Shown piece after piece: positions 6,524 through 46,857 of a stretch of DNA of 64,000 nucleotides. Both the position numbers and the translations under genes were made by a program. The notes beneath the pieces were generated by a model. It had not been told where the DNA came from. It worked only from the letters and a program-made list of their open reading frames with translations, and did not search any database. The stretch spans positions 186,001 to 250,000 of the forward strand of contig NZ_JAMCCQ010000004.1 in assembly GCF_023370775.1 (NCBI RefSeq), written 5' to 3'. This DNA is from Marivita sp. GX14005. GTDB taxonomy: Bacteria > Pseudomonadota > Alphaproteobacteria > Rhodobacterales > Rhodobacteraceae. The stretch's first letter is position 1, and the number at the start of each line of letters is the position of its first letter.

Positions 6524-7324
6524 TTATTCCCCGAAAAGCCGCACGACAGAGCCGCCGCCATGGACCTTGACGATCTGACCACTGACCCAACCGGCGGCGG
6601 GCGAGGCGAGCCAGAGCATCGCGTTGGCGATATCCTGCGGCTTGCCGGTGCGTCCGATCAGGTTATCGGGGTGCTTCAGGCGTTCCTGCGTCGCCTCGTC
6701 AAGCCCCGCGTCGCCGTAACCTTCTGTCATCACGGTGCCGATCAGCACTGTGTTCACCCGGACCTGTTGCGCCAGCATATGCGCGAGCGAGATCATCATC
6801 TGGTTCAACGCCGCCTTGGCCGTGCCGTAGCCCAGAATGTCATAGGCCGGCACCGCAGACGAGAACGAGCCGGAATTGGTGATGCTGCCGTTTTCGGCCT
6901 CTTTCAGATAGGGCAGGCAGGCCATCGACATGCGATAGGCGCTGATGGTGTTCAGCTTGTAGGCGTCCACCAGTTCCTCTTCGGTGATCTCGGTCGGATC
7001 GTCGTGGCGCGGGCCCCAGCCCACGTTGTTCACCAGGGTCGAGATGCCGCCGAACGCGTCGACGGTTGCCTTGACCAGCGTGTCGATGTCTTCGGCCTTG
7101 GTCACGTCGCAGGCCATGCCGAGGCAGCGGTTGCCGGTTTCCTTTTCAATCTCGGACGCCGTTTGCTGGGCCTTGTCGCCCTGCAGGTCGGCGATCATCA
7201 CATTGGCCCCGGCCCCTGAAAGCGTCTTGGCGATGCCCGCGCCGATGTTTTGCGCGCCGCCGGTGATGAGGACGTTGTGGCCCTCCATGCTGAAATCTGC
7301 AAATGCGTTGAATGTGTCAGCCAT
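6524..7324 (-). CDS. SDR-family NAD(P)-dependent oxidoreductase
   Basis: 266 residues of classical short-chain dehydrogenase. The glycine-rich cofactor loop 'TGGAQNIGAGIA' is near residue 21, an acidic 'MACDVT' adenine-pocket motif near 70, and 'NNVG' near 99. The catalytic serine lies in 'SGSFSS' (~151-156), with Tyr166 and Lys170 in 'YGTAK'. These enzymes oxidise an alcohol or reduce a ketone with NAD(P). The ribosome site GAAAGGAG precedes the ATG. It lies ~55 bases downstream of a second SDR gene on the same strand, so both are probably co-transcribed. The substrate is not identifiable. Confidence 0.93.
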   Translation of the reverse strand: MADTFNAFADFSMEGHNVLITGGAQNIGAGIAKTLSGAGANVMIADLQGDKAQQTASEIEKETGNRCLGMACDVTKAEDIDTLVKATVDAFGGISTLVNNVGWGPRHDDPTEITEEELVDAYKLNTISAYRMSMACLPYLKEAENGSITNSGSFSSAVPAYDILGYGTAKAALNQMMISLAHMLAQQVRVNTVLIGTVMTEGYGDAGLDEATQERLKHPDNLIGRTGKPQDIANAMLWLASPAAGWVSGQIVKVHGGGSVVRLFGE

Positions 7325-11470: not shown

Positions 11471-11785
11471 GCGGCATGGCGGCAATCCTTGATCTACGAT
11501 GGCGATCGCGGCCATCAGCACAGTAGTCGCGGCGATACAGAGGCAACCCTGGAACGCCCGTCACCGGCCGCCGGACGGGCGCTTCCACATCCGCGCATCA
11601 GGCTACTTTCGAGAAGAACCCCCTATGGCGTAACTGGCCAGTTGTCCGGTCGGACAGGTTGCCGGTCCGGGATAAGCTGCTGGATGAGCCTTGCATCCTC
11701 GTCATGTTTGTTCGCCGCTGCCTCATGGTGGCCTTTATGTTCCGGTCTTGGCACCCGTTCCGCCATCCGGCGCAGCCGACGTGCG
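11471..11785. other. Intergenic gap between convergent genes, no gene seen
   Basis: 315 bases between the PQQ dehydrogenase stop and the phoB stop. Neither strand carries a plausible coding region. There are short inverted repeats, for example around 11646-11656 (TGTCCG and CGGACA), but no stem followed by a T-run, so no intrinsic terminator can be assigned for either operon. Confidence 0.5.
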
Positions 11786-12478
11786 TCAGCCCAGGGCATA
11801 GCCGACGCCGCGCACGGTGCGCAGCGGGTCGTCGCCGCCATGCCGGCACAGCGCCTTGCGCAAGCGGCCGACATGGACATCGACGGTGCGGGTTTCGACG
11901 TGGATGCCGCGGCCCCAGACCCGATCCAGCAGCTGCTCGCGGCTGAGCACCCGTCCGGGCTTTTCCATCAGGCTCGCCAGCAGGCGGAATTCGGTCGGGC
12001 CGAGGGTCACTTCCTTGCCTGCGCGGGTGACGCGGTGGGTTTCGCCATCGAGCCGGATATCCCCGAACTCCATAACAGCCCCGGCCGCCAAAGGGCGCAC
12101 CCGCCGCAGGCCCGCGCGAACGCGGGCCATGAGCTCGGCGACGGAATAGGGTTTGACCACATAGTCGTCGGCACCGGTTTCCAGCCCGCGGACGAGGTCT
12201 GGCTCGTCCGAGCGGGCCGAAAGCATGATAACGGGGATGTCCTGCGTCTCGCGCCGAACCTTCAGGCGTCGGCAGACTTCGATCCCCGACAGCCTCGGCA
12301 TCATCCAGTCAAGGATGATGAGGTCGGGCGGATCCTCATCCACCAGCAACATCGCTTCTTCGCCGTCATGCGCCTCGCGCACGCGATAGCCTTCGGCGGC
12401 GAGGTTGTAGCTGATTACCTCGCGCTGTGCGGCCTCGTCCTCAACCAGCAGGATCAAGGGGCGGTCCATGGCGGTCAC
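11786..12478 (-). CDS. phoB: Phosphate regulon response regulator PhoB
   Basis: 230 residues in OmpR/PhoB format. The receiver domain has acidic pocket 'LLVEDEAAQREV' and phospho-acceptor Asp in 'LIILDWMMPRLSG' (~residue 57), conserved 'VIMLSARS' and 'ADDYVVKPYS'. The C-terminal winged helix has 'TLGPTEFRLLASLMEKPGRV' and 'RTVDVHVGRLRKAL'. Phosphorylated PhoB binds Pho boxes and activates phosphate-starvation genes. The GTG at 12478 overlaps the phoU stop; an ATG three codons later is an alternative. It is the last gene of phoR-pstSCAB-phoU-phoB, the arrangement common in alphaproteobacteria. Confidence 0.95.
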   Translation of the reverse strand: MTAMDRPLILLVEDEAAQREVISYNLAAEGYRVREAHDGEEAMLLVDEDPPDLIILDWMMPRLSGIEVCRRLKVRRETQDIPVIMLSARSDEPDLVRGLETGADDYVVKPYSVAELMARVRAGLRRVRPLAAGAVMEFGDIRLDGETHRVTRAGKEVTLGPTEFRLLASLMEKPGRVLSREQLLDRVWGRGIHVETRTVDVHVGRLRKALCRHGGDDPLRTVRGVGYALG

Positions 12479-13197
12479 GCGGCCCCGCCCTTGCTGGCTG
12501 CACTGGCGGTATAGTCGGCTTTCGGGCGCTCACCATCCGGCATCGCGCCGGTCGCGAGATAGATCACCTGCTCGGCAATGCCGGTGGCGTGATCGCCGAC
12601 GCGTTCGATATTCTTGGCGATGAAATGAAGGTGCATGCAGGCCGAGATGTTGCGCGGATCCTCCATCATGTGGGTCAGGAACTCGCGGAAAAGGGTGTTG
12701 TACATCTGGTCCACATCGTGATCGCCCTGCCGCACCTCCTCGGCCAGCTCCGCGTCGCGGTGGATATAGGCGTCGAGCACCTGTTTCAACTGCAGCTGCA
12801 CTGCCTTGCCCATGCGGCGGATCGAGCCTGTCGCGCCCTCGACCGGCGGCATGCGCGACAGCACGTCCGAGCGTTTGGCGAGGTTCTTGGCATAATCGCC
12901 GCAGCGTTCCAGCGCGGCGGCGATCTTCATCGCGCTCAGCACCGTGCGCAGATCGGCCGCGGTGGGCGCGCGCAACGCGATCACGCGGGCGGCCTCGATA
13001 TTGATCCGCTCTTCCAGCGCGTCGATCTCGGCGTCGCCGCGGCGCACCTGGCCCGCAAGTTCATTGTCGCGGGTCTCCAAGGCGCGAACGGCGTCCAGAA
13101 TAGCGGCCTCGACCAGCCCGCCCATGCGGGTGATCATGGCCTCGATCGCCTCAAGGTCGCGGTCGAAGGCCGTAGCGATGTGATGTTTGCTGGTCAT
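12475..13197 (-). CDS. phoU: Phosphate signalling protein PhoU
   Basis: 240 residues, two PhoU helical repeats: 'HHIATAFDRDLEAIEAMITR' with 'MGGLVEAAILDAVRAL', and later 'HLHFIAKNIERVGDHATGIA' with 'EQVIYL'. The E/DxxxD-type metal-binding pattern is kept ('ALERCGDYAKNLA', 'NIERVGDHATGIA'). PhoU connects the Pst transporter with the PhoR kinase and dampens Pho signalling when phosphate is sufficient. It lies 11 bases after pstB and overlaps phoB by four bases, consistent with one transcript. Confidence 0.95.
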   Translation of the reverse strand: MTSKHHIATAFDRDLEAIEAMITRMGGLVEAAILDAVRALETRDNELAGQVRRGDAEIDALEERINIEAARVIALRAPTAADLRTVLSAMKIAAALERCGDYAKNLAKRSDVLSRMPPVEGATGSIRRMGKAVQLQLKQVLDAYIHRDAELAEEVRQGDHDVDQMYNTLFREFLTHMMEDPRNISACMHLHFIAKNIERVGDHATGIAEQVIYLATGAMPDGERPKADYTASAASKGGAA

Positions 13198-13208
13198 CTC
13201 GTCTTCCT

Positions 13209-14003
13209 TCAGCCGATGCGGCCGCTGATATAGCTTTCCGTGCGCGGGTCGGCGGGGTTTGTAAAGAGCTCACCCGTATCGCCATATTCCACCATGCGGC
13301 CCAAATGAAAAAACGCCGTGCGCTGGCTGACGCGGGCGGCCTGCTGCATGGAATGGGTGACGATCACGACCGCGAATCGATTGCGCAATTCGTCGATCAG
13401 TTCCTCGATCTGCGCGGTGGCAATCGGGTCAAGCGCCGAGCACGGCTCGTCCATCAACAGGATCTCGGGCGCGGTGGCGATGGCCCGCGCGATGCAGAGG
13501 CGCTGCTGCTGCCCGCCCGAAAGCCCGGTGCCGGGGGCATTGAGCCGATCCTTGACCTCGTCCCAGAGCGCGGCGCGGCGCAGGGACTTTTCCACCACCT
13601 CGTCCAGCTCGGCCCGCGTGCGGGTCAGGCCGTGGATTTTCGGCCCGTAGGCGACGTTGTCGCGGATCGACTTGGGGAAGGGGTTTGGCTTCTGGAAAAC
13701 CATGCCGACCTTGGCGCGCAATTGCACCGGGTCAACGCGCGGGTCGTGGATGTCTTCGCCGTCGATGCGGACCTCGCCCGTGACGCGGGCGGCCGGGATC
13801 GTGTCGTTCATGCGGTTGAGGCAGCGCAGGAAGGTGGATTTCCCGCAGCCCGACGGCCCGATGAGGGCGGTGACGGCCTTATCGGGGATATCGACATCGA
13901 CGTCGCGGACCGCGTGTGTATCGGCGTAATGCACCTGCAGGCCGCGAACGGCGATCTTGGCGGTGTCGGTGGTGGCGGGCGTTTCTGTCAGCGTGTCTTT
14001 CAT
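13209..14003 (-). CDS. pstB: Phosphate ABC transporter ATP-binding protein PstB
   Basis: 264 residues. Walker A 'GPSGCGKST' near residue 49-57, Q-loop region '[15 protein letters not shown]' (the NPFPKSI string is diagnostic for PstB), signature '[16 protein letters not shown]', Walker B '[13 protein letters not shown]' and H-loop 'VIVTHSM'. It powers high-affinity phosphate import with PstA and PstC at the inner membrane. It is in line with pstA upstream (10-base gap) and phoU downstream. It is regulated through the Pho box before pstS. Confidence 0.97.
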
Positions 14004-14013
14004 GGCGGTTCCT

Positions 14014-15351
14014 TTACCAACGGCGTTCGAAACGGCGGCGCAGCAGGATGGCCGCGGCGTTCATGACAAGTAGAAAGGCAAGCAGCACGATGATCGCGCC
14101 CGACGCGCGTTCGACAAAGGCCGGGTCGGCGCGCTGGGTCCAGTTGTAAATCTGCACTGGCAGGGCCGAGGCGGGATCGAAAAGCCCTTCGGGCGGCGCG
14201 GCGGGATATTCGCGCACGAAGGCGACCATGCCGATCAGCAAGAGCGGCGCGGTCTCCCCCAGCGCCTGCGCCAGTCCGAGGATCGTGCCGGTCAGGATGC
14301 CGGGCGCGGCCAGCGGCAGGACATGGTGAAACACCGCCTGCATCCGCGACGCGCCCAGCCCGAGCGCCGCTTCGCGGATCGAGGGCGGCACCGCCTTGAG
14401 GCTGGCGCGGGTGGCGATGATGATCGTCGGCAGGGTCATCAATGTCAGGACCAGCCCGCCCACCACGGGCGCCGATTGCGGCAGGCCCGCGAAATTGATG
14501 AAGATGGCCAGGCCCAGGATGCCGAAGACGATCGACGGGACGGCGGCGAGGTTGGCGATATTTACCTCGATCAGATCGGTCAGCCGGTTCTTCGGCGCAA
14601 ATTCTTCCAGATAGATCGAAGCCGCCACGCCGATGGGCAGCGCCAGCGCCAGCACGATCAGCATCATGTAGGCCGAGCCGAGGATGGCGACCCCCAGCCC
14701 CGCCGCCTCGGGCCTCTGGTCGGACGCATCCGGCGCGGTCAGAAACGCGGCGTTGAAATCGAGCGACAGGAGGCCCCGTTCCATCATCGCATCGGCCAGC
14801 TGCAGTTGCGCGGGGGATACATTGCTGTCGAGCGCGGCCGATTCCGCCGTGACCCGGCCTTTCAGATAGCCGTCGATCCGGCCGTTGGCGAGAACCGACA
14901 GATCGATTGTCTCGCCGATCAGATCGGGGTTGGACAGCACCATGTCGCGCACCTGCGCGGCCGCCTCGCGTGAGATGATGCCGGATATGTCGTCGTCGGT
15001 CAGCCCGTCGATGGCGATGCCCGCCTGAGCCACGGCCTCGGCGAGGGCCTTGTCGATCACCTTGCCGTAGCCGATGGTCGTGACCTTCTTCATCACCTCG
15101 GTGTCGCGGGTGCCGGATTGGTCCAGCTCCGCTTCGCTCAGATGAATAGGAAGATGGATGTAGCTCTGGCGAAACGCGCCGAGGCCGGAGGTCAGGACCG
15201 AGGCCAGCAGCACCGCCAGCGCGGCGAGGCCGATCAGGATCGCGCCGAGGCCACAGGCGCGGAACCGGGCTTCGGCAGCATGGCGCCGCGCGGTGCGGTC
15301 GCCGCGTTTCAGCAGCGATTGCGCCGGTGCGGGACAGGAGATGTCGCTCAT
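14014..15351 (-). CDS. pstA: Phosphate ABC transporter permease PstA
   Basis: 445 residues from the ATG that overlaps the pstC stop (ATGA). There is a hydrophobic first helix (~35-60), then a long periplasmic-type domain of ~150 residues containing '[20 protein letters not shown]', and the permease core with '[20 protein letters not shown]' and the coupling-helix region '[20 protein letters not shown]'. The large N-terminal insertion makes it longer than the ~296-residue E. coli protein; this DUF3333-containing form is usual in alphaproteobacteria. An in-frame extension back to 15405 lies in pstC and was rejected. Confidence 0.93.
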
Positions 15352-16532
15352 TCGTATTGCTCCCGGTATTTGCGCACGATGGCCAGCGCCAGCACGTTCA
15401 GGCAAAGCGTGATGGCGAACAACGTCAGCCCGAGGGCGAAGGCCACGAGGGTCTCGGGCGCGGCGAAATCGCTGTCGCCGGTCAACTGGCTGACGATCTT
15501 GACGGTGATGGTGGTCATCGCCTCGAACGGGTTGAGGCTGAGCTTCGCGGCGGCCCCGGCGCCAAGCACGACGATCATGGTCTCGCCGATGGCGCGGCTT
15601 GCGGCCAGCAGCACCGCGCCGACGATGCCGGGCAGCGCGGCGGGCAGGATCACCTGGCAGATCGTCTCGGAGCGCGTCGCGCCAAGGCCGAGCGAGCCGT
15701 CGCGCAGCGATTGCGGCACCTGGGCGATGATGTCGTCCGACAGCGACGACACGAACGGGATCAACATGATCCCCATGACGAGCCCCGCGGTCATCACCGA
15801 CGAGCCGCTCGACCCCACCCCGAGCGGCTGCGCGAAGTAGTCACGCAAGAGCGGGCCGACGGTGATCAGCGCGAACAGGCCGTAGACGATGGTGGGGATG
15901 CCCGCGAGCACCTCGATGCCCGGCTTGACGATGGCGCGGAAGCGGCGGCTGGCATATTCGGCCATGTAGATCGCGGCGAAAAGCCCGACCGGCACCGCGA
16001 AGACGAGCGCGATGAAGCTGACATAGAGCGTACCCCAAAGCAGCGGCAGTATTCCCAGGTCGGAATTGCCCTGGAACCGCGGTGCCCAGGTGGTGGAGAG
16101 AAAGAAATCCCGCCAGCCGTACTGGGCAAAGAAATTCTGCGTCTCGAACAGCATCGACAGCACGATGCCCGCCGTGGTGGCGATGGCGACGCAGGCGGCG
16201 AGGACGAGCAGCACCAGCACACCGCGCTCCACCGTCCGGCGGGCGCGGAAATCGGGGGCGATCCGGCGCAGCGACCAGGCAAGGGCCGCCAGCGCCAATG
16301 CCACCACGGCGACGGTGCCCGCAGGCGTCAGCGGGGCCGCCATCGTCAGCAGGGCAAGCAGCGAAAGCGCGGGGACCAGCGTGAAAAGAACCGTGGCCCA
16401 GCCGTAGTGGCCTGGTAGGGAATGCAGCGCACGGATGTCGCCGCCGGCGCTGGCAAGGGCGCGCGCGCGGCCGAGCGCAAAGCCCAGGGCGGCGAGGATG
16501 AGCAGGGTCAACAGGGTCCAGATTGCGGACAT
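15348..16532 (-). CDS. pstC: Phosphate ABC transporter permease PstC
   Basis: 394 residues with an extended N-terminus (several hydrophobic segments before residue 130) and the permease core with 'AIYMAEYASRRFRAIVKPGI', 'EVLAGIPTIVYGLFALI' and coupling motif 'DGSLGLGATRSETICQVILP'. It forms the transmembrane channel with PstA. Like PstA, the protein is longer than the enterobacterial version. It is separated from pstS by 67 bases and overlaps pstA by four bases. Confidence 0.95.
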   Translation of the reverse strand: MSAIWTLLTLLILAALGFALGRARALASAGGDIRALHSLPGHYGWATVLFTLVPALSLLALLTMAAPLTPAGTVAVVALALAALAWSLRRIAPDFRARRTVERGVLVLLVLAACVAIATTAGIVLSMLFETQNFFAQYGWRDFFLSTTWAPRFQGNSDLGILPLLWGTLYVSFIALVFAVPVGLFAAIYMAEYASRRFRAIVKPGIEVLAGIPTIVYGLFALITVGPLLRDYFAQPLGVGSSGSSVMTAGLVMGIMLIPFVSSLSDDIIAQVPQSLRDGSLGLGATRSETICQVILPAALPGIVGAVLLAASRAIGETMIVVLGAGAAAKLSLNPFEAMTTITVKIVSQLTGDSDFAAPETLVAFALGLTLFAITLCLNVLALAIVRKYREQYE

Positions 16533-16599
16533 GAGGCCTCCGGTGCGGCGGGTGCGGGCGACCCGGCCGGAACCGAGCCGCCCGGATTGGCGCGGCGGA

Positions 16600-17619
16600 T
16601 CAGTTCATCAGCGCTTCATCGGCCAGCCCGGCCTGTGTGTCGGCCAGCTCCGGGTCGGGCACCAGCCCGTAATCGGCCAGCGGCCCGCCCGGCCCGGCGA
16701 TATCGTCCGACACGAAGAATTCGGCATAGTCTTTCAGGCCGGGAACCATGCCGAGATGCGCCTGTTTCACGTAGAAATAGAGCGGCCGCGAGACCGGGTA
16801 CTCGCCCGACGCGATGGTCTCGGTCGAGGGGACGACATCGTTCATGGTCGCAACCTGCAGTTTCGCGGTGTTGTTCTCGTAGAAGGACAGGCCGAACACG
16901 CCGATCCCGTCTGCGTTGCTGCCGATCCGGGCCAGCGTCTCGGTATAGTCGCCGTCGATCTCGACCGCGCGGCCATCGGTGCGCAGCGATGTGCAGAGCT
17001 TGCCCGCATCCGCGCCAAGGTTTTCCAGCGCGGCCGCGGCACCGCTGTCCTCGCAACCCTGTTCGATCACGCGCTCGTCGAAAACCTCGCGCGTGCCATG
17101 CTTGGTGCCGGGAACGAAGGCCATGATCTCCTGCGCGGGCAGATCGGGGTTCACGTCGCTCCACTTGGTCGCGGTGTTCGGAACCAGCTTGCCATCCACG
17201 ACGACCTCGGCCGCCAGTGCCTTGTACCAATCGGCGGGGGTGAAGGCGAAGGAGGCGCTACCAATGTCGGAGGCGAACACGATGCCGTCATAGCCGATCC
17301 GCACCTCGATGATCTCCGTGACACCGGCAGCCGCGCAGACCGCCTTCTCGCTGTCCTTGATGCGGCGCGAGGCATTGGCGATATCGATGCTGTTCTCGCC
17401 CACGCCCTCGCAGAACCTCTTGAGGCCGGCCGAAGAGCCACCGGATTCGATCACCGGTGTGGGAAAGTCGGTGTTTTCGCCGAACAGTTCGGCGACGATG
17501 GTGGCATAGGGCAGCACGGTGGACGAACCGGCCACCTGCACCTGGTCGCGCGCAGCGGCGGCGGTGGCCGAGACGGCCAGGATGGCAAGGGCAGAGGTCG
17601 CAGGCGTCATGCGGGACAT
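16600..17619 (-). CDS. pstS: Phosphate-binding periplasmic protein PstS
   Basis: 339 residues. A Sec signal peptide ('SALAILAVSATAAAARD', cleavage around residue 23) is followed by 'QVQVAGSSTVLPYATIVAEL', the N-terminal phosphate-binding segment; 'ESGGSSAGLKRFCEG'; and 'GTREVFDE', which supplies further ligand residues. It captures phosphate in the periplasm for PstCAB. It is the first gene after phoR and is preceded by a three-unit Pho box (17700-17728), so it heads its own PhoB-activated transcript. Confidence 0.94.
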   Translation of the reverse strand: MSRMTPATSALAILAVSATAAAARDQVQVAGSSTVLPYATIVAELFGENTDFPTPVIESGGSSAGLKRFCEGVGENSIDIANASRRIKDSEKAVCAAAGVTEIIEVRIGYDGIVFASDIGSASFAFTPADWYKALAAEVVVDGKLVPNTATKWSDVNPDLPAQEIMAFVPGTKHGTREVFDERVIEQGCEDSGAAAALENLGADAGKLCTSLRTDGRAVEIDGDYTETLARIGSNADGIGVFGLSFYENNTAKLQVATMNDVVPSTETIASGEYPVSRPLYFYVKQAHLGMVPGLKDYAEFFVSDDIAGPGGPLADYGLVPDPELADTQAGLADEALMN

Positions 17620-17699
17620 GGATCTTCTCCTGTTGTGTCGCGGCGGCTCGTCCGGGAACGATCCGCACCGCCGCTATAAGCGCCGGCTGCTACGGTTTT

Positions 17700-17728
17700 G
17701 CGACACTCATGTAACAGTTCCATGAAAC
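17700..17728 (-). promoter_or_regulatory. Pho box (PhoB binding site) upstream of pstS
   Basis: On the minus strand, three 7-base units recur with exact 11-base period: GTTTCAT (17722-17728), CTGTTAC (17711-17717) and GTGTCGC (17700-17706), each separated by four bases. The Pho box consensus is tandem CTGTCAT-like heptamers with four-base spacers, each spanning one helical turn. The middle unit is closest to it. The site lies ~80 bases before the pstS start, in the phoR-pstS gap, the expected place for PhoB activation. Confidence 0.7.
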
Positions 17729-17741
17729 CCGCCCGCGCAGG

Positions 17742-18800
17742 TCAGTTTCTCGGCAGGAAAACCGAGAAGCGCGCGCCCGTGCCCGGCGCGCTGCCGATGT
17801 CGAGCCGGCCGCGATGGCGGCTGACGATATGCTTGACGATGGCAAGGCCCAGCCCCGTGCCGCCCTTATCGCGCGAGCGGTGATCGTCGACGCGGTAGAA
17901 CCGTTCGGTCAGGCGCGGCAGGTGCATCGGCTCGATCCCGTCGCCATCGTCGGTCACGTCGATGCGCAGCATCGCCTCATCGTTCGGGGCGTGGAGGGCG
18001 AGCGTGACACGGCTGCCCGCCGCGCCGTACTTGATCGCGTTCTCGATCAGGTTCTGCAATACCTGCATCAACTGGTCGGCATCGCCGGGGATGCGCGCCT
18101 GACGGTCCGTTCCCAGGATCTCGAGTTCAAGCCCCGCATCCACAGCGGCTGGTCGAAAACTGGCGGCAGCGGCATTAACCAACTCGGCCACATTGACAAG
18201 CGCGGTAGGCCGCTGCCGTTCCTGCGCCTCGACCTTCGACAGAGACAACAGATCGTCGACCAGCCGGCTCATCCGGCCTGCCTCACGCTCCATGATCGAT
18301 AGAAAGCGGTCGCGGGCGGCCGGATCATCCCTCGCTGCGCCTTTCAGGGTCTCGATGAAGCCGACGAGCGTGGTCAGCGGCGTGCGCAATTCATGGCTGA
18401 CATTGGCGACGAAATCGCGGCGGAACTGGCCGACAAGCTCCTGCTCGGTGATATCCTCGAAGGCACAAAGCGCGCCGCGCGCCTCACCCAATGGGACCGG
18501 CGAGACCGTGACCCGGTAGCTCACCTCGTGCGAGTGGCCGGGAATCACGTAAGGCGCCTCCGCGCGGGTGCCCGCCCGGAGCGCCGCCTCGATCGTAGCC
18601 AGAAGCGCGGGCTGGCGTAGGGCCAGGGCGTGATGGCGCCCGACCTGCCCGGGCCCCAGGATCGCCTCGCCCGCCGCGTTGGCGGCCAAAATCCTGTCAT
18701 CCGCACCGACGAGGATAACGGGCAGCGGAATGCCGGACAGGATTGTCTGGATCAACCGGGCATCCAATTTATCCGCCTCCAACGCGGTTTCCGCCCACAT
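17742..18800 (-). CDS. phoR: Phosphate regulon sensor histidine kinase PhoR
   Basis: 352 residues. A PAS-like domain (~15-115, 'ILSGIPLPVILVGADDRIL', 'NAAGEAILG') precedes the dimerisation domain with H-box 'FVANVSHELRTPLTTLVGFI' (His ~136). The catalytic domain has N-box 'LMQVLQNLIENAIKYG', G1 'DVTDDGDGIEP' and G2 'KGGTGLGLAIVKHIV'. It autophosphorylates and passes phosphate to PhoB under phosphate limitation. Unlike E. coli PhoR, there are no clear transmembrane helices at the N-terminus, so it would depend on PhoU/Pst for membrane contact or start further upstream. It opens the pho-pst cluster. Confidence 0.92.
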   Translation of the reverse strand: MWAETALEADKLDARLIQTILSGIPLPVILVGADDRILAANAAGEAILGPGQVGRHHALALRQPALLATIEAALRAGTRAEAPYVIPGHSHEVSYRVTVSPVPLGEARGALCAFEDITEQELVGQFRRDFVANVSHELRTPLTTLVGFIETLKGAARDDPAARDRFLSIMEREAGRMSRLVDDLLSLSKVEAQERQRPTALVNVAELVNAAAASFRPAAVDAGLELEILGTDRQARIPGDADQLMQVLQNLIENAIKYGAAGSRVTLALHAPNDEAMLRIDVTDDGDGIEPMHLPRLTERFYRVDDHRSRDKGGTGLGLAIVKHIVSRHRGRLDIGSAPGTGARFSVFLPRN

Positions 18801-18866: not shown

Positions 18867-19085
18867 TCATCTCGCTCGGACGGCAGAGCCGGATGAGATA
18901 TCGCCGTAACCAAACGTCGCTGCGGCTTCGAACTGGCGCTCATCAAGTGCCGGGCGGATGGCATCCAAGGCTTCGCGCAGGTGATCCGATGCTTGCGCCA
19001 CGCCGGCCGCGTCGCCGAGGATCATGTCATCGATCGCGCGCAGGTCTTCGGCGCGCGCATCCAGGATTGCTTCGACGTCGCTCAT
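18867..19085 (-). CDS. Small hypothetical protein, third gene of the toxin-antitoxin operon
   Basis: 72 residues, mostly helical and acidic in the first two thirds ('VEAILDARAEDLRAIDDMIL', then 'GDAAGVAQASDHLREAL'). The ATG overlaps the antitoxin stop (ATGA), so it is translationally coupled to it. No family is recognised. Small helical proteins trailing TA pairs sometimes act as chaperones or extra regulators, but nothing here proves that. Confidence 0.5.
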   Translation of the reverse strand: MSDVEAILDARAEDLRAIDDMILGDAAGVAQASDHLREALDAIRPALDERQFEAAATFGYGDISSGSAVRAR

Positions 19086-19309
19086 GATTGGCGCGCATCT
19101 TCCTGGTCGAGTCGATCCAGAAGACGCAGCCCCGCCTCGGGATCGCCTCTGGCGGCACGCGTCCGGAACCGCGTTTCAAGATCGAACTCGGTCAGGGCGC
19201 GGGTCGTCAGCTCCTCGATCACCTTGTTGACGCTCACGCCCCGCGTCTTGGCGAGCTGGCGCAGCCGTTCGTGCTGCGCATCGGGCAATCTGATGGTCAT
19301 GACGCTCAT
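19082..19309 (-). CDS. Ribbon-helix-helix antitoxin
   Basis: 75 residues from the ATG at 19309, which overlaps the upstream PIN gene stop as ATGA; a start five codons earlier is possible but would lie deeper in the toxin gene. The N-terminal 'VMTIRLPDAQHERLRQLAKT', then 'RGVSVNKVIEELTTRAL', is a CopG/Arc-type ribbon-helix-helix. The C-terminal 'ETRFRTRAARGDPEAGLRLL' is the toxin-binding tail seen in antitoxins of PIN toxins. It would neutralise the toxin and repress the operon by binding the palindrome at 19742-19765. Confidence 0.8.
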   Translation of the reverse strand: MSVMTIRLPDAQHERLRQLAKTRGVSVNKVIEELTTRALTEFDLETRFRTRAARGDPEAGLRLLDRLDQEDARQS

Positions 19310-19737
19310 GTTCGTGTCTCCCATGCTTTCAAGAAGTCTCCCGCCGTCCCGGTCTCTATATCGTCGAAAGGCAGCTCCGCGCGCCGCAGATCGCGCAGGA
19401 TGGTTGTGACGATCCAGTCCGCGCCTCCGGCGACCGCCAGTTCGATCAGATGATCGTTGCCCGGATCGGGCAGGTTTTGCCGCCAGAGGTAATAGACCGG
19501 CGTCCAGGTGCTGACCGACATCAGGGCGTCGAACAGAGCCTCGCGCTCGGCGGCATCGAGCGCGGAACGCTGGAACAGTTCGTTGCGGGCCAGAACGCTC
19601 TCGTATTCCGCGAACAGGGCCGCACCGACAAGCGGCGACACCTGTCGTTCGAGGCAGAGGCGCAAGATGCGCCGTGATGCTCCGCCGTCCGACAAAAGAG
19701 CCGCAACGAGGATATTGGTGTCCAGAACAACGCGCAT
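19306..19737 (-). CDS. PIN-domain toxin (putative ribonuclease)
   Basis: 143 residues from the ATG at 19737; a GTG five codons earlier falls inside the operator palindrome. A PIN-domain start, 'MRVVLDTNILVAALLSDGGA', carries the first catalytic Asp. Glu in 'FAEYESVLARNEL' and Asp in 'LPDPGNDHLIELAVAGGADW' with 'IVTTILRDL' complete the acidic active site. This belongs to the COG1569-like 'putative toxin-antitoxin system toxin component, PIN family'. Such toxins are metal-dependent RNases. The toxin precedes the antitoxin, reversed from most PIN TA operons. It lies beside the CRISPR relic and the replication genes, which fits a plasmid-maintenance role. Confidence 0.82.
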   Translation of the reverse strand: MRVVLDTNILVAALLSDGGASRRILRLCLERQVSPLVGAALFAEYESVLARNELFQRSALDAAEREALFDALMSVSTWTPVYYLWRQNLPDPGNDHLIELAVAGGADWIVTTILRDLRRAELPFDDIETGTAGDFLKAWETRT

Positions 19738-19741
19738 GATT

Positions 19742-19765
19742 TTAGATAGCACATATGCTATCTAA
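19742..19765. promoter_or_regulatory. 24-bp palindromic operator of the TA operon
   Basis: Perfect inverted repeat with 10-base arms TTAGATAGCA and TGCTATCTAA around a CATA centre, a few bases upstream of the PIN start. Its size and symmetry suit a tetrameric ribbon-helix-helix repressor. It is the only such palindrome near the operon, so autoregulation by the RHH antitoxin is the simplest reading. Confidence 0.7.
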
Positions 19766-19885
19766 TTTCTAGCGTACTCCTGTGTTCCGCGTCAGGCCCA
19801 CATCCTGACCGCGATGTCCTGCTCTTCGCGGCCCTTGGCCCCTCGGCGCTTAACATTATGACCAATAGTGTTAGGACCGCGCGTT

Positions 19886-19982
19886 CCATAAACGAAACGA
19901 GGCGGGCCTCGGCCCGCCTCAACGTCGTGGATATTTCACCTTATCGCGGGAAAGACCACGAGGCTTCTTCTGCTAGAAGATG
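19886..19982 (-). ncRNA. tracrRNA of a type II-C CRISPR system
   Basis: Read on the minus strand, the segment starts with an anti-repeat (19959-19979). Twenty of its bases can pair with the 3' part of the CRISPR repeats at 23.6 kb, with one G-U pair. After it comes 'GCGATAAGGTGAAATATCC', carrying the ATAAGG nexus seen in Cas9 tracrRNAs, enclosed by CGTGG/CCACG. A 10-bp GC hairpin (19899-19920) with a T-rich tail ends it. A weak promoter, TTGACC-17 bases-GAGGAT (complement of 20011-20016 and 19988-19993), would start the RNA just before the anti-repeat. It lies directly upstream of the cas9 remnant and is transcribed away from it. Boundaries are estimated. Confidence 0.8.
19899..19920 (-). terminator. 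Intrinsic terminator of the tracrRNA
   Basis: Perfect 10-bp stem (arms GAGGCGGGCC and GGCCCGCCTC on the plus strand) with a two-base centre. On the minus strand it is followed by GTTTCGTTTATGG, a T-rich tail. It is positioned as the 3' end of the tracrRNA. Confidence 0.7.
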
Positions 19983-20036
19983 TACCGATCCTCCTCTACT
20001 CTCCACAAAGGGTCAAGGGGTTGAAGAGGTTGTGAC

Positions 20037-22230
20037 ATGCCCGTCCGGTTTACATTCGATCTGGGAACGACATCCATCGGTTGGGCGGTCTACGACCTCG
20101 ACCCTGTGCTTTGGAAGACCGTTCACAAGGCCAGGGTGACCGGCCTGCGTCGGCCTCATCAAATCTGCCGCGCGCGCCCTTGTTGAAACGCTCACCGAAA
20201 CCGGCCACGCCACCTATGGCGCCTATCTCTGGTCCCGTCTGAAGGCCGGAGAAGGCGTGCGGGTGCGTCCGCATGGTGACGGAGCCGAGAAACATTATGA
20301 GTTCTACCCGACGCGCGGAATGCTGGAGAACGAGTTCGATGCGATCTGGAATGAGCAGGCCCGGCATCACCCGGAGTTGACCGATGCGGTCCGCGACCGA
20401 CTGCGCGAAACGATCTTCTACCAACGCCCACTCCGCCCCGTCGATCCCGGCCGCTGCACCTTCTTTCCCCAAAAGCCCCGCCTGCCCCGCTGGCATCCGG
20501 CGGCACAGGCCTTCCTGATCCTGCAACAGCTCGGCCACCTGCGGATCATCCGCGAAACCCACGAGGAACGTCTCGACCCCGACAAGCATCGCGTCCTGTT
20601 CGACGCGCTGAACGGCGGGCAGAAAATGACCTGGACGCAGGTCCGCAAGACGCTTGGCCTGACATCGCAGGACGACACCGCCGCCGCCGAAAAGGTGCGC
20701 CTGCCCGACGGCCATCTCCGCTTCTGCCGCGAGGCGACCGATGCGATGGTCGCCGAAATGCGCGCGGACGTCATCACCTACAACGAAGCCGTCGACCGCG
20801 CCCCGCTCCTCTCCGGCATCGATTTCACCGACAGTCGCCCGGAAAAAGGCGTCTGCATCTTACCCTACGACAACGAGCTGGATCATATGCTGTCACCCGG
20901 CGAGGCCGCCGAGCTTGGCATCTTCGATCAGGAGGCCATGATCGAGCGGACAAAACACCTGCCCCGCAACAAGGCCTGGCGCTTCCTGCCCGACGCGATG
21001 GAGGTCTTCGAGGAACAGAAAAGCTTCGAGGACCGGCAGCTCCACGCCACCGGCTATCTGGCCAAGGTCGTGCGGGGCTACGCCGAAACCCTCTTCGACA
21101 AACAGGACGTCGATGGGACGGAACGCCGCCATGTCTGGATGCTGCCGGGCCGCATGACCGCCCTGCTGCGCCACCGCTGGGGCCTGAACCTGGGCGATCA
21201 CAACCGCAAAAATCGCGATGATCACCGCCACCACGCCATCGACGCCGCGGCGGTCGGCGTGATCGACCGCGGCATGATCGCCCGGTTGCAGAAGGCCGCC
21301 AAACAGCACGGCGCCAACGCCCTGCCCCGCGTCCTGCCCGCCCCGCCCGAACCGTTCCCGGGTTTTCGTGACGTCGTGATGGACGCCATCCGCGATGTCC
21401 GCGTCAGCCATCGTCCGCGGCATTCTTCGACGACCGCGAATGGGTCGAGGCCTTCAAGTCAGAACACGCCCGGTGCATTGCAGAAGGCGGGTCGCTATGG
21501 CCTTATCCGTGACCTGCCGGAAAATCAGGAGGCTCTGCTACACGCGAAAAAGGGCAAGACCGCCTATGTGAAGCGTGCCAACGTAGTCGACCTTTCGGCT
21601 TCGCAGATCCCTGTGGTGCGCGACCTTGCTCTACGGGCGCAGCTCAAAGAGGTTGCAGGAAAGGATGGCACGCTCGCAACCAACCTCGCCGAGTGGAGCA
21701 CCGAAACCGGCGTCAAACGCGTTCGCCTGATCGAACCTTTATCGGGTCTTCGACCGCTCCACGACAGCTCAGGTCAGGTGTTCACCCATCTTCGCCGTGC
21801 CGAAATCGCCTATCTGGACATCCTGGAGGCACCGGACGGAAAGTGGTTCGCACATGATGTGGATGTCTGGGGGCTTTATCTCGATACGGTTCGGGATTGG
21901 CGCACCGCTTATCCCGATGCCAAATTCATCATGCGTCTATATAAGGGCGATACCATCCAACTGTTCGACTGGGACAAGGAACGGAAAGAGATTGTTTTCG
22001 GCGCCAACTCTATCAAAGTCGTCCGAAAGCTGAATAATTCTCCGGATAACAAGAACGTCGTCCTCTTCGGCTCGAATGAAGCCGGAGACTTGGAGAAGCG
22101 GCATAAAGACCCGGAGGACGATTTCGAATGGGATTGGCCGCCATTCAATAGGCTCAAGCTCCGGCGCGCCCGGCGCGTGCGGATCGACGAATTGGGGAAG
22201 GTGCACACCATACCGCATGGCAAGGTGTGA
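20037..22230 (+). pseudogene. cas9: Degraded type II-C Cas9
   Basis: The ATG at 20037 starts a canonical RuvC-I segment ('MPVRFTFDLGTTSIGWAVYD'), but the frame drifts into a stop at 20184. From ~20138 another frame resumes Cas9 sequence without stop to 22230: REC lobe ('YEFYPTRGMLENEFDAIW', 'QRPLRPVDPGRCTFFPQ', 'LQQLGHLRIIRE'), 'LPRNKAWRFLPDAMEVFE', RuvC-III ('NRDDHRHHAIDAAAVGVID', ~21217-21270), and the complete C-terminal PAM-interacting domain ('DAKFIMRLYKGDTIQLFDW', 'SNEAGDLEKRHKDPEDDF'). The arginine-rich bridge helix, RuvC-II and nearly all of HNH are missing; only an 'ELDHML' trace near 20875 hints at HNH. Roughly 700 of the usual 1000-1100 codons remain. It cannot be a standard DNA-cutting Cas9. 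The later deletions keep one reading frame. Confidence 0.88.
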
Positions 22231-22270
22231 CGTTTGCAGGTGACCTGTCGGGCCCGGTTCGGAGGGTTCG

Positions 22271-23177
22271 ATGGTTGGACGGATACTGGAACTGGCGCGG
22301 GACAACACCGCCATTCACAAGTCACGCGGATTTTTGTCGGTGCGCCACGACGGCGCGGAAATCGGTAAGGCGGAGCTTGACGACATCGACGCCGTGCTGG
22401 TCTCGGGCCAGGGCCTGACCTGGTCCAACACCGCTTGCCCATCTCGCCGCGCAGAACGTGCCCGTCACCATCCTGGGGCCGAACTTCGCCCCGGTCGCCG
22501 TCGTCCTGCCGCTGAACGGCCATGGCGAACAGGGCTACCGCATGGCAGATCAGGCCGCCGCCCCCAAACCGCTCCGCAAACAGGTCTGGGCGCGGCTCGT
22601 CCGCCACAAGATCGCCGCCCAGGCCGCCGTGCTCGACCGCCTCGACCTGCCCTCGGAACGGCTGCACCGGCTGACCGCCGCCGTCCACTCCGGCGACCCC
22701 GCCAACCGCGAGGCGCAGGCCGCACAGGCCTACTGGCCGCTGCTGCTGGGCAAGGGCTCTCGCCGCGATACCAGGGCGGAAGGCACCAATGCCCTTCTCA
22801 ACTATGGATATGCCGTCCTGCGCGCCGCGACCGCCCGCGCCATCGTCTCCGCCGGCCTGCACCCCTCGCTCTCGGTCCATCACCGCAGCGGCGGCGATGC
22901 GCTCGCCTTGGCCGATGACCTGATGGAACCCTTTCGACCAACCATCGACTTGACCGTCCACGCCCTGCTTCAGTCCGGCGTCACCTCCGCCGAAGACGGC
23001 CGCGCCGACCTCGTCGAAACTCTCATCGCGCCCTTTTCAACCGATCAGGGTCGCTCGCCACTCTCCCAGGTGCTGTTCCGGCTGGCCCAGGGCGTCGCCG
23101 CAAGTTTCACCGCCCGAAAGGCCGACCTCGCCTTCCCGCGACAGCCGATCCCCGAAGACGACCCCGCCGATGCCTGA
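22271..23177 (+). pseudogene. cas1: Cas1 with a frameshift
   Basis: Type II Cas1. The first frame gives 'MVGRILELARDNTAIHKSRG' and 'IDAVLVSGQGLTWSNTA'; after ~22428 the homology moves to another frame, 'HLAAQNVPVTILGPNFAPVA' onward to 23177. Comparing with the expected 'NTALAHLA' shows two bases missing (or one extra) near 22427-22431. The catalytic parts are otherwise present: Glu in 'AEGTNALLNYGYAVLRAA', His and acidic residues in 'GLHPSLSVHHRSGGDALALA' and 'DDLMEPFRP'. Cas1 is the spacer integrase with Cas2. A ribosome site GGAGG precedes the ATG, and the stop overlaps cas2. A sequencing error would restore it, but the cas9 state suggests real decay. Confidence 0.88.
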
Positions 23178-23514
23178 CCTTCCTGCCCTCTCGAAGTACA
23201 AGATCATGTGGATTTGGACCCTGTTCGACCTCCCCGTCCTGACGAAAACGGAGCGCCGCCGCGCCACGAGATTCCGGAACGGCTTGCTCGATCTCGGTTT
23301 CGGAATGGTGCAGTTTTCGGTATATCTGCGCCATGCCTACTCCAAGGAAAAAGCTGATGTTATCGCCGCCAAGGTCGGCGAGCTGGTCCCCCCGGCCGGT
23401 CACGTCCAGATACTGTTCTTCACGGACAGGCAATATCAGCTCACACAGAGTTTCCACGGTCGCGCCCGTAGCGGCCCCGAGCAAAAGAAACCCGATCAAC
23501 TCACGTTATTTTAA
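23170..23514 (+). CDS. cas2: CRISPR-associated endoribonuclease-like protein Cas2
   Basis: 114 residues, intact. Ferredoxin-like Cas2 fold: 'MWIWTLFDLPVLTKTERRRA' with the conserved Asp of strand 1, 'FRNGLLDLGFGMVQFSVYLR' and 'VQILFFTDRQYQLTQSFHG'. It is the structural partner of Cas1 in spacer acquisition; type II Cas2 of this length is normal. It overlaps the cas1 stop by eight bases. It is the only undamaged cas gene here, so it is probably a leftover. Confidence 0.93.
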   Translation: MPDLPALSKYKIMWIWTLFDLPVLTKTERRRATRFRNGLLDLGFGMVQFSVYLRHAYSKEKADVIAAKVGELVPPAGHVQILFFTDRQYQLTQSFHGRARSGPEQKKPDQLTLF

Positions 23515-23555
23515 CAGATCGTGGCCCGTTTTTTCGACACGCCCGACAAGGAAAT

Positions 23556-23584
23556 GCCCTGCGAACCAAGAGGTTACGCAGGGC
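23556..23584. repeat. Strong hairpin between cas2 and the CRISPR repeats
   Basis: Arms GCCCTGCGAACC and GGTTACGCAGGGC pair over 12 bp with one bulged A and an AAGA loop. It ends three bases before the first repeat. On the minus strand, the direction in which the crRNA would run, it would lie just after the last repeat and might stop or stabilise the transcript, but no T-run follows it. Confidence 0.55.
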
Positions 23585-23586
23585 CA

Positions 23587-23688
23587 GTTCTAGCAGAAAA
23601 AGCCTCGCAGCCAAACCCGGACATTTTTTCCTGCCACACCTCGATTGCCTCGGTTCTAGCAGAAAAAGCCTCGCGGCCCTGTGTTCCT
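23587..23688 (-). CRISPR. Two-repeat remnant CRISPR array
   Basis: Two copies of a repeat start at 23587 and 23653, exactly 66 bases apart, which equals 36 + 30 as in type II arrays. The 26 bases starting at each point are the same except one A/G change. On the minus strand they end with GAGGCTTTTTCTGCTAGAAC. Beyond those 26 bases the copies differ, so one or both repeats are degenerate at the 5' (minus-strand) end. The repeat 3' end TGCTAGAAC resembles the extended -10 promoter found at the end of II-C repeats (as in Neisseria). One spacer (~23623-23652) can be defined. The minus-strand repeat pairs with the tracrRNA anti-repeat. Confidence 0.8.
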
Positions 23689-23883
23689 GAGGTTTTCGCT
23701 ATAAGTATGGTCGCGGCGCGATGCCGATCAGATCGGCTTGCAGATCGACGACAAGCTGCACCCCGTCCGGCCGAGTAAGATAGAATTTGTCAATTATATC
23801 AGTGCTTTAGAAGCGTAGACCTCGCGGTGTCGTCCACATCGGCATCGAGCTTGAGATCGTCCTTTCCGGCACAAGCGCCCTGC

Positions 23884-45292: not shown

Positions 45293-46857
45293 CCGACGCC
45301 GCGAGTCCCGCCCCGCGCCGGGGCCGCGCCCATGGCGCGTGGATCGGCGTTGCCGTCATCATCGCGCTTTGGGAACTGGCGGGGCGAGGCCTCACCGAGG
45401 CGTTCGTTCTTGCCGCGCCGAGCGAGGTTCTGGCCTATCTGGCCGAGGATTGGCGGCTCATGGCGCGCGCGCTTGGCGTGACGCTGGCCAATGCCGCCGC
45501 CGGGTTCGTGATCGGCAATCTCGCCGCCGTGGCGCTCGCCGGCATCGCGCTGCTCTGGCCGCGCTCGCAACGGATCGTGACGGGGCTTGCGCTGCTGGTC
45601 TTTTGCCTGCCGCTGGTCGCCACCGGGCCGATCCTGCGGGTGTTCTTCGGGCCCGGCCCCGGCCCTCAGATCACGCTGGCGGCGCTGGCGGTTTACTACA
45701 CGACGCTGATCCCGTTGCTCGTGGGCCTGCGCGCCGCGCCCGACAGCTGGTTCGATCTGGTGCGCAGCTACGGGCGCGGGCGGATCGCGGCGCTGGTGCA
45801 TGTGCGGCTGATGGCGGCGCTGCCTTACCTGTTCGCGGGCCTGCAAATCGCCGCGCCCGCCGCGTTCCTTGGCGCGATGGTGGGCGAGTTCACCGGCGCG
45901 GAGCGCGGCATGGGCGTTCTGACGGTCCGCGCGATACGGGCGCTCGATGTGGAGATGACATGGGGGCTGGCGACTGTGGCGACGGCGGTGGCGATCCTCG
46001 CCTATCTCGCCATCGGCGCGCTGGCGCGGCGCGTCCTGCTCGATGCGCCGCCCGTGATCCTCGCCGCACCGGCGGCAGCGAACCGGGGTCGGGGATGGGT
46101 CGATGCGCTTGTCGTGCTGGCGCTGGCAATCGGGCTCTGGGGCTGGACGATCTGGGCCTTCGGGCTCAACCCGTTCTTTGCCAAGGGGCCGGGGGATGTC
46201 TGGGCCGCGCTTGTCACCGCGCCGGATGCCGCCGCCACGCGCGGGGTCATCGGCGCGGCGCTGGCGGAGACGGCGGTGTTCCTGCTGCCGGGATACCTCG
46301 CCGGGCTGGCCGCCGGGGCGGGGCTGGCGATCCTGCTGGTTCTGGTGCCTGCGCTTGCAGGCACCGCGATGCCGCTGGCCATCGCGCTGCGCTCGGTGCC
46401 CATCGTGACGACCGCGCCGCTGGTGGTGCTGATCCTCGGCCGCGGAGCGGCGGGGACCATCGTTCTGGTGGCGGTCATGGTGTTCTTCCCGACATTCGTG
46501 GCCTGCCTGCACGGGTTGCGGCAAGCGCCAGGGCAGGTGATGGACGTGCTCGACAGCTACGCCGCCGGGCCGCTCGCGCGGCTCGTGCGCGTGCGCATCC
46601 CGGCGATGCTGCCGAGCTTCTTTGCCGCCGCCCGCATGGCGGTGCCCGCGTCGGTTCTGGCCGTGACGGTGGTGGAGTGGCTCGCCACCGGGGCGGGGAT
46701 CGGCAGCCTGATGGCGCTCTCGGCCTCGCTGTCGGATTACGATATCCTGTGGAGTTCGGTCGTCCTCGTCGCCGCGCTGTCGGCGCTTGGCTATGCGCTC
46801 GTCGGCGCGGTGGAGCGGCGGGTGCTGGCGCGCTATGCGCCCGAGCAGCTGGCATGA
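45289..46857 (+). CDS. Double-length ABC transporter permease (two fused permease domains)
   Basis: 522 residues, about twice a normal permease of this class. The first half runs ~15-250 ('LALLVFCLPLVATGPILRVF', 'LVRSYGRGRIAALVHVRLMA') and the second ~265-510 ('LAIALRSVPIVTTAPLVVLI', 'LDSYAAGPLARLVRVRIPAM'). Each has its own coupling loop, so a single chain could replace the usual homodimer. The start is GTG, overlapping the ATPase stop (GTGA). The fusion is seen directly as two tandem domains with no stop between. Confidence 0.9.
   Translation: MTDAASPAPRRGRAHGAWIGVAVIIALWELAGRGLTEAFVLAAPSEVLAYLAEDWRLMARALGVTLANAAAGFVIGNLAAVALAGIALLWPRSQRIVTGLALLVFCLPLVATGPILRVFFGPGPGPQITLAALAVYYTTLIPLLVGLRAAPDSWFDLVRSYGRGRIAALVHVRLMAALPYLFAGLQIAAPAAFLGAMVGEFTGAERGMGVLTVRAIRALDVEMTWGLATVATAVAILAYLAIGALARRVLLDAPPVILAAPAAANRGRGWVDALVVLALAIGLWGWTIWAFGLNPFFAKGPGDVWAALVTAPDAAATRGVIGAALAETAVFLLPGYLAGLAAGAGLAILLVLVPALAGTAMPLAIALRSVPIVTTAPLVVLILGRGAAGTIVLVAVMVFFPTFVACLHGLRQAPGQVMDVLDSYAAGPLARLVRVRIPAMLPSFFAAARMAVPASVLAVTVVEWLATGAGIGSLMALSASLSDYDILWSSVVLVAALSALGYALVGAVERRVLARYAPEQLA

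Follow-up and report, generated by a model that had tools for sequence, protein, structure and literature searches.

Loss of clustered regularly interspaced short palindromic repeats (CRISPR) systems has precedent: decayed loci retain traces of a system that is otherwise gone, and loss of CRISPR has been reported in Mycoplasma gallisepticum. Among Neisseria Cas9 orthologues, Nme1Cas9 and NcCas9 are described as differing mainly in the domain that interacts with the protospacer adjacent motif (PAM) (PMC9701194). The present analysis concerns a type II-C CRISPR-Cas locus of Marivita sp. GX14005 (Rhodobacteraceae), found at 19886-23688 of a 64,000-nt stretch of contig NZ_JAMCCQ010000004.1 (positions 186,001 to 250,000) that we call the window and whose numbering is used below. 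The locus holds a trans-activating CRISPR RNA (tracrRNA) on the minus strand, a cas9 remnant, cas1, cas2 and an array with one spacer, and it is very probable that it once worked, was recently inactivated and is now decaying by deletions. An earlier note on this DNA had recognised the same elements in II-C order and had proposed a relic with its RNA parts kept and its protein parts broken; we found every element in place, and comparison with a locus of Palleronia sediminis and other relatives supports the relic, the RNA parts being nearly intact. Among the publications that literature searches listed, none was recognisable from its title or the opening of its abstract as concerning this locus.

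Several lines of evidence lead us to this reading: (i) both cas9 and cas1 carry lesions; (ii) the RNA components are near-intact; (iii) another genus has a similarly composed locus whose cas genes are open; (iv) no second Cas9 was found in the host assembly; and (v) the array is down to one spacer, against 17 full repeats in that other locus. The reference is the best of five relatives obtained by scanning genome contigs with the remnant, namely locus L003 of Palleronia sediminis SS33 (NZ_SNAA01000032.1, a contig of 7,923 nt). It has open frames for a Cas9 of 1,098 aa, a Cas1 of 302 aa and a Cas2 of 114 aa, and its 36-nt repeats are separated by spacers of 29-31 nt; there are at least 17 of these repeats, and the contig stops soon after them. 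At the array end (L003 7799-7923) a repeat-like stretch passes into sequence that, by eye, resembles the beginning of an insertion sequence. Gene order is common to the window and L003, as is a neighbouring toxin-antitoxin-like gene pair, and their DNA is about 90% identical in the surviving cas9 blocks outside the PAM-interacting (PI) region and 93.5% identical over the stretch spanning the cas9 end, cas1, cas2 and the array. They differ in that L003 has full cas9 and cas1 frames, its long array and an integrase gene, all of which the window lacks.

Relative to L003, the window cas9 is missing 380 nt, which shifts the frame, and 213 and 510 nt, both in frame; these stretches correspond to L003 residues of about 39-165, 341-411 and 483-653, respectively. 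Within them lie an arginine-rich stretch (59-85), a motif at 536-542 and motif stretches at 622-653, which we take to be the bridge helix, RuvC-II and HNH, whereas the motifs at 8-16 and 767-772 (HHAIDA), presumably RuvC-I and RuvC-III, are retained. The junctions share at most 1-2 nt of sequence. The first (20149..20151) takes the rest of RuvC-I, the bridge helix and the start of the REC lobe; the second (20676..20678) lies in the REC lobe; and the third (20888..20891) removes RuvC-II and the HNH motif. What remains on the plus strand is a 5' stub with the RuvC-I motif (MPVRFTFDLGTTSIGW...) at 20037..20186, whose frame closes after 49 codons, shortly past the first deletion, and, in a different reading frame, an open frame of 696 aa at 20140..22230 covering part of REC, the remaining HNH region, RuvC-III and the PI region; from its first listed start, a GTG at 20257, this frame would give 657 aa. 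The remnant is recognisably Cas9, matching Pfam RuvC_III and Cas9_a over their cut-offs, TIGR01865 at 180.8 bits (cut-off 100) and PADLOC Cas9. That bridge helix, RuvC-II and most of HNH are missing had been proposed in the earlier note and is borne out by the alignment, which further reveals that the REC lobe has lost 213 nt and that the RuvC-I stub is out of frame with what follows.

The adaptation genes are of type II, matching the cas1_NMENI and Cas2_II models, and have fared differently. The cas1 gene (22271..23177, plus strand) is frameshifted, as had been claimed, through the absence near 22431 of 2 nt present in L003, where cas1 is a single frame whose product matches the corresponding loci L004 and L038 in one frame each. 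The cas2 gene (23170..23514, plus strand) is a complete frame of 114 aa, 96% identical to that of L003. Gaps between cas9, cas1, cas2 and the array are at most 72 nt, and the scanned flanking open reading frames gave no fourth cas gene, matching instead PIN, ribbon-helix-helix (RHH), ParB-like and RepA-like models; csn2 and cas4 were not searched for genome-wide. The locus thus has the features of type II-C (a cas9-type effector, albeit a broken gene, a tracrRNA complementary to the repeat, cas1 with cas2, and 36-nt repeats with a spacer of about 30 nt) and lacks two of a working one, namely a complete Cas9 in one frame, with bridge helix, RuvC-I, -II and -III and HNH, and a complete Cas1.

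The RNA parts are far better preserved. The tracrRNA (19888..19981, minus strand, ends approximate) comprises an antirepeat (about 19981-19943), a nexus, a terminator hairpin (stem-loop 19921-19898) and a T-rich tail; it can be aligned across seven loci of the same Cas9 group, the window included, and does not differ from the L003 tracrRNA anywhere between the start of the antirepeat and the terminator stem, the stem included. Nearly the whole 36-nt repeat pairs with the antirepeat, at -54.3 kcal/mol, and since the best of 500 shuffled repeats reached -32.4 (mean -19.2) this pairing is not due to chance. The L003 pair gives -59.8 kcal/mol; in both window repeats, a difference from L003 replaces a duplex G-C pair by G-U. 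With the tracrRNAs of six relatives, the window repeat pairs at -44.8 to -54.3 kcal/mol. The plus strand, too, contains sequence that could pair with the repeat, and a tracrRNA there was considered and rejected, as the two plus-strand stretches folded no better than shuffles (z of 0.1 and -0.2; -3.0 for the minus strand at 19870-19985). We prefer the minus strand because of its duplex over nearly the whole repeat and its terminator-like site at 19921-19898 (one found, 0.2 expected). No sigma-70-type promoter match was present in 19850-20100, and no Rfam family matched the window at its gathering score.

The array, whose minus strand orientation follows from tracrRNA pairing, consists of a full 36-nt repeat (23587..23622), its only spacer (30 nt, 23623..23652) and a distal repeat (23653..23688) conserved just in its first 26 nt in plus-strand order. 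The suggestion that Cas2, the tracrRNA and both repeats look functional therefore holds for Cas2, which is complete, and for the intact tracrRNA and one repeat, and fails for the second repeat, which is only partly kept. None of 45 matching phage records covered 80% of the spacer; 5 of 15 plasmid records did, the best at 92% over 26 nt (Haladaptatus, E 0.04), none of them convincing, and the central 20-mer had no exact match in IMG/VR. Self-targeting as a cause of the loss was rejected, since a search of the host that allowed up to 3 mismatches gave no second copy of the spacer. The spacers of L003 likewise gave no convincing target (best E 0.1 among phages and 0.09 among plasmids); one of them has a 17-nt match in the window at 7093-7109 (E 3e-4, from a small sequence set), which we take to be chance.

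Functionally, the strain may still produce CRISPR RNA (crRNA) and tracrRNA, and the two may still pair. Without a working Cas9 to load they would support no interference, and with Cas1 broken no new spacers would be taken up.

The earlier note had suggested looking for a second, intact cas9 with the same repeat, and none was found: the host assembly has one place matching RuvC_III, one matching the remnant protein, and no further copy of the repeat at up to 3 mismatches. What it does have is a type I-E system on contig 5, with Cas6, Cas5, Cas7, Cse2 and Cse1 over their NCBIfam cut-offs, a Cas3 that passes the cut-offs of the core and HD models but not that of the full-length PRK09694 (369.5 of 569 bits), and an array of 46 repeats, one with 5 mismatches, and 45 spacers. 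Its Cas2e is an open frame confirmed by Pfam. Its cas1 (locus L047, 8583-9515) is interrupted by an in-frame stop following residue 231, beyond which the frame continues for another 78 codons; the 231-aa piece scores over the Cas1e cut-off, matches to position 226 of the 269 in the profile, and could by its sequence retain some residual activity. Both cas1 genes found in the host are thus interrupted, while the I-E effector genes and the 45 spacers remain. Compared with the window and the collected loci, those spacers gave, outside their own array, just matches of 14-15 nt, the level expected by chance; one of these lies in the window at 45541-45554, outside the II-C locus. Among 17 genomes of the genus, host included, the II-C remnant was matched in the host alone, as was the host's Cas1e. 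The II-C system may have come under relaxed selection in this host, which carries type I-E as well.

The part of cas9 encoding the PI region has a history of its own. Over 21424..22152 (plus strand) a single 84-nt stretch matches L003 at the DNA level (75%), whereas the flanking blocks match at 90.5% and 93.5%. At the protein level the window and L003 are 91% identical in the RuvC-III block (174 columns) and just 45% identical in the PI block (234 columns); the corresponding values between L003 and L004 are 79% and 61%. The simplest reading of these sequences is that the PI region underwent exchange in a still functioning system and that the deletions came later. The case is made by the jump in identity and not by topology: in trees of 13 sequences (the window, L003, L004, L038 and nine further family Cas9s hand-picked from those fetched) the PI region separates the window from L003, but keeping the two together was not rejected (approximately unbiased test, p 0.106), and holding the window with L038 in the RuvC-III block gave p 0.019. 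No donor was found, the best PI match being L038 at 47%.

As to timing, the ratio of nonsynonymous to synonymous substitution rates (dN/dS) against L003 is 0.14 for cas9 (437 surviving codons, omitting the PI block and codons beside gaps), 0.21 for cas1 and 0.15 for cas2, values that describe mostly the period before the loss. We also apportioned amino-acid changes between the window and L003 branches. For cas9 these numbered 12 and 10 (12 unresolved) with L004 as outgroup, 11 and 6 (14) with L038, 11 and 8 (10) with L005, and 6 and 6 (6) with L039; for cas1, 9 and 5 (1) with L004, 8 and 3 (4) with L038, and 1 and 0 (5) with L005, a weak partial match only; and for cas2, 2 and 1 (0) with L004 and 1 and 1 (1) with L038. 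The slight excess on the window side would fit a recent relaxation of constraint. Given that this excess is only slight and that the 696-aa frame has no stops, inactivation seems recent when set against the divergence from L003.

In a single draw of 394 family genomes that included the host, 30 matched the remnant protein. Judged solely by the length of the open frame, 22 of the 30 reach 1,000 aa or more, five (G000, which is the host, G277, G069, G091 and G291) are broken away from contig ends, and three (G098, G124 and G211) are cut by contig ends. The earlier note had allowed that the missing segments might be absent from a whole family of functional relatives; L003 has them, and the Cas9 frames of those 22 genomes, judged by length only, run to 1,073-1,179 aa. 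Thalassovita taeanensis (L004, NZ_FOEP01000004.1) belongs to the same Cas9 and tracrRNA group and its cas9 is also broken, into frames of 653 and 510 aa, but by a frame break instead of large deletions; the Cas1 and Cas2 of L003 each match it in one frame. G069 (L043) has independently lost the centre of Cas9, roughly L003 residues 195-628, so that RuvC-II is gone and the start of the HNH motif is reached. Elsewhere, G291 (L041) keeps a Cas9 tail with partial cas1 and cas2, and G091 (L042) an isolated Cas9 fragment.

Some of these observations weigh against a dead locus. Of the three cas9 deletions, two leave the reading frame unchanged, and no stop interrupts the remaining 696 aa, so a product could still be made; a well-kept tracrRNA and repeat, which recent loss would explain, would be explained by function as well; and the 2-nt change in cas1 could stem from a sequencing or assembly error, an unlikely source for the three large deletions. 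The shortened frame might encode a retained, nuclease-less Cas9-derived protein (part of REC, RuvC-III and PI) that uses the surviving tracrRNA and crRNA, for instance as a binder or regulator, and the low overall dN/dS is in keeping with this. We nevertheless regard it as very unlikely, because the frame begins after a frameshifting deletion that severs RuvC-I and removes the bridge helix, dN/dS reflects mostly pre-deletion time, Cas1 is broken and one spacer is left. Moreover, no other remnant was present among the genus genomes, and the same set of deletions was seen in none of the 30 matching family genomes, where the region-by-region look covered the broken loci and members of the group only. 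Put in its strongest form, the locus would have been reshaped and not have died, the remnant being translated from an internal start and working with the tracrRNA and the single crRNA after selection for loss of the nuclease. The independent central loss in G069 would fit such a trend, and we give this form a similarly slim chance. It is about as doubtful that the RNA parts were kept to serve a Cas9 arriving on another mobile element: the tracrRNA and one full repeat unit are intact and the repeat pairs with the tracrRNAs of six relatives, but the host assembly yielded no other Cas9, the single spacer has no known target, and recent decay accounts for the same facts. That the strain's locus is intact and the lesions are artefacts is just as improbable, for while there is one assembly only and the cas1 lesion is just 2 nt, the window and L003 are collinear apart from four distinct, cleanly bounded deletions of 213-635 nt, and the array is reduced as well, an unlikely outcome of such errors.

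The fourth of those deletions lies upstream of the cas genes. Across the region the order is an RHH antitoxin-like and PIN toxin-like pair (19082..19752, minus strand), the tracrRNA, the cas9 remnant, cas1, cas2 and the array, followed by ParB- and RepA-like partition genes. The RHH/PIN pair also adjoins the L003 locus, and this flank is 81% identical in DNA between the two. Between the pair and the tracrRNA, the window lacks 635 nt relative to L003 and with them nearly the whole of a tyrosine-recombinase gene, which in L003 matches Pfam Phage_integrase over the cut-off; its final 14 codons and the deletion junction are at 19798..19848 (minus strand). The claim that the locus sits on a plasmid-type replicon is sustained to the extent that RepA/RepB-like partition genes adjoin it and the flanks match plasmids; the replicon itself is not closed. 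Directly beyond the array, 68 nt (23720-23787) are 79% identical to the start of ccdB on a plasmid of Qingshengfaniella alkalisoli and are probably a gene fragment lying beside the decayed array. Further away, 11780-18800 carries pst phosphate-transport genes resembling plasmid-borne Paracoccus copies, with a histidine kinase gene adjoining at 17742-18800.

Taken as a relic of a II-C system, the locus offers a snapshot of the death of a Cas9 system, in which separate deletions have broken the protein genes while the RNA parts are still nearly intact. Comparison with the near relative in Palleronia points to a recent loss and uncovers a PI-region exchange that probably preceded decay. Together with the interrupted I-E cas1, the locus also offers a natural example of a genome whose two CRISPR systems may both have become unable to acquire spacers. 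The relic is genuine and ordinary in kind, decayed loci being already known, and the PI mosaic and the double interruption of cas1 are its more informative details. Where it differs from decayed CRISPR loci in general is that the intermediate state can be read lesion by lesion against a near relative. The Neisseria Cas9 systems (PMC9701194) resemble the locus in their 36-bp repeats and 30-bp spacers and in a difference residing mainly in the PI domain; those Cas9s are intact and active, whereas the mosaic in the window sits in a broken gene.

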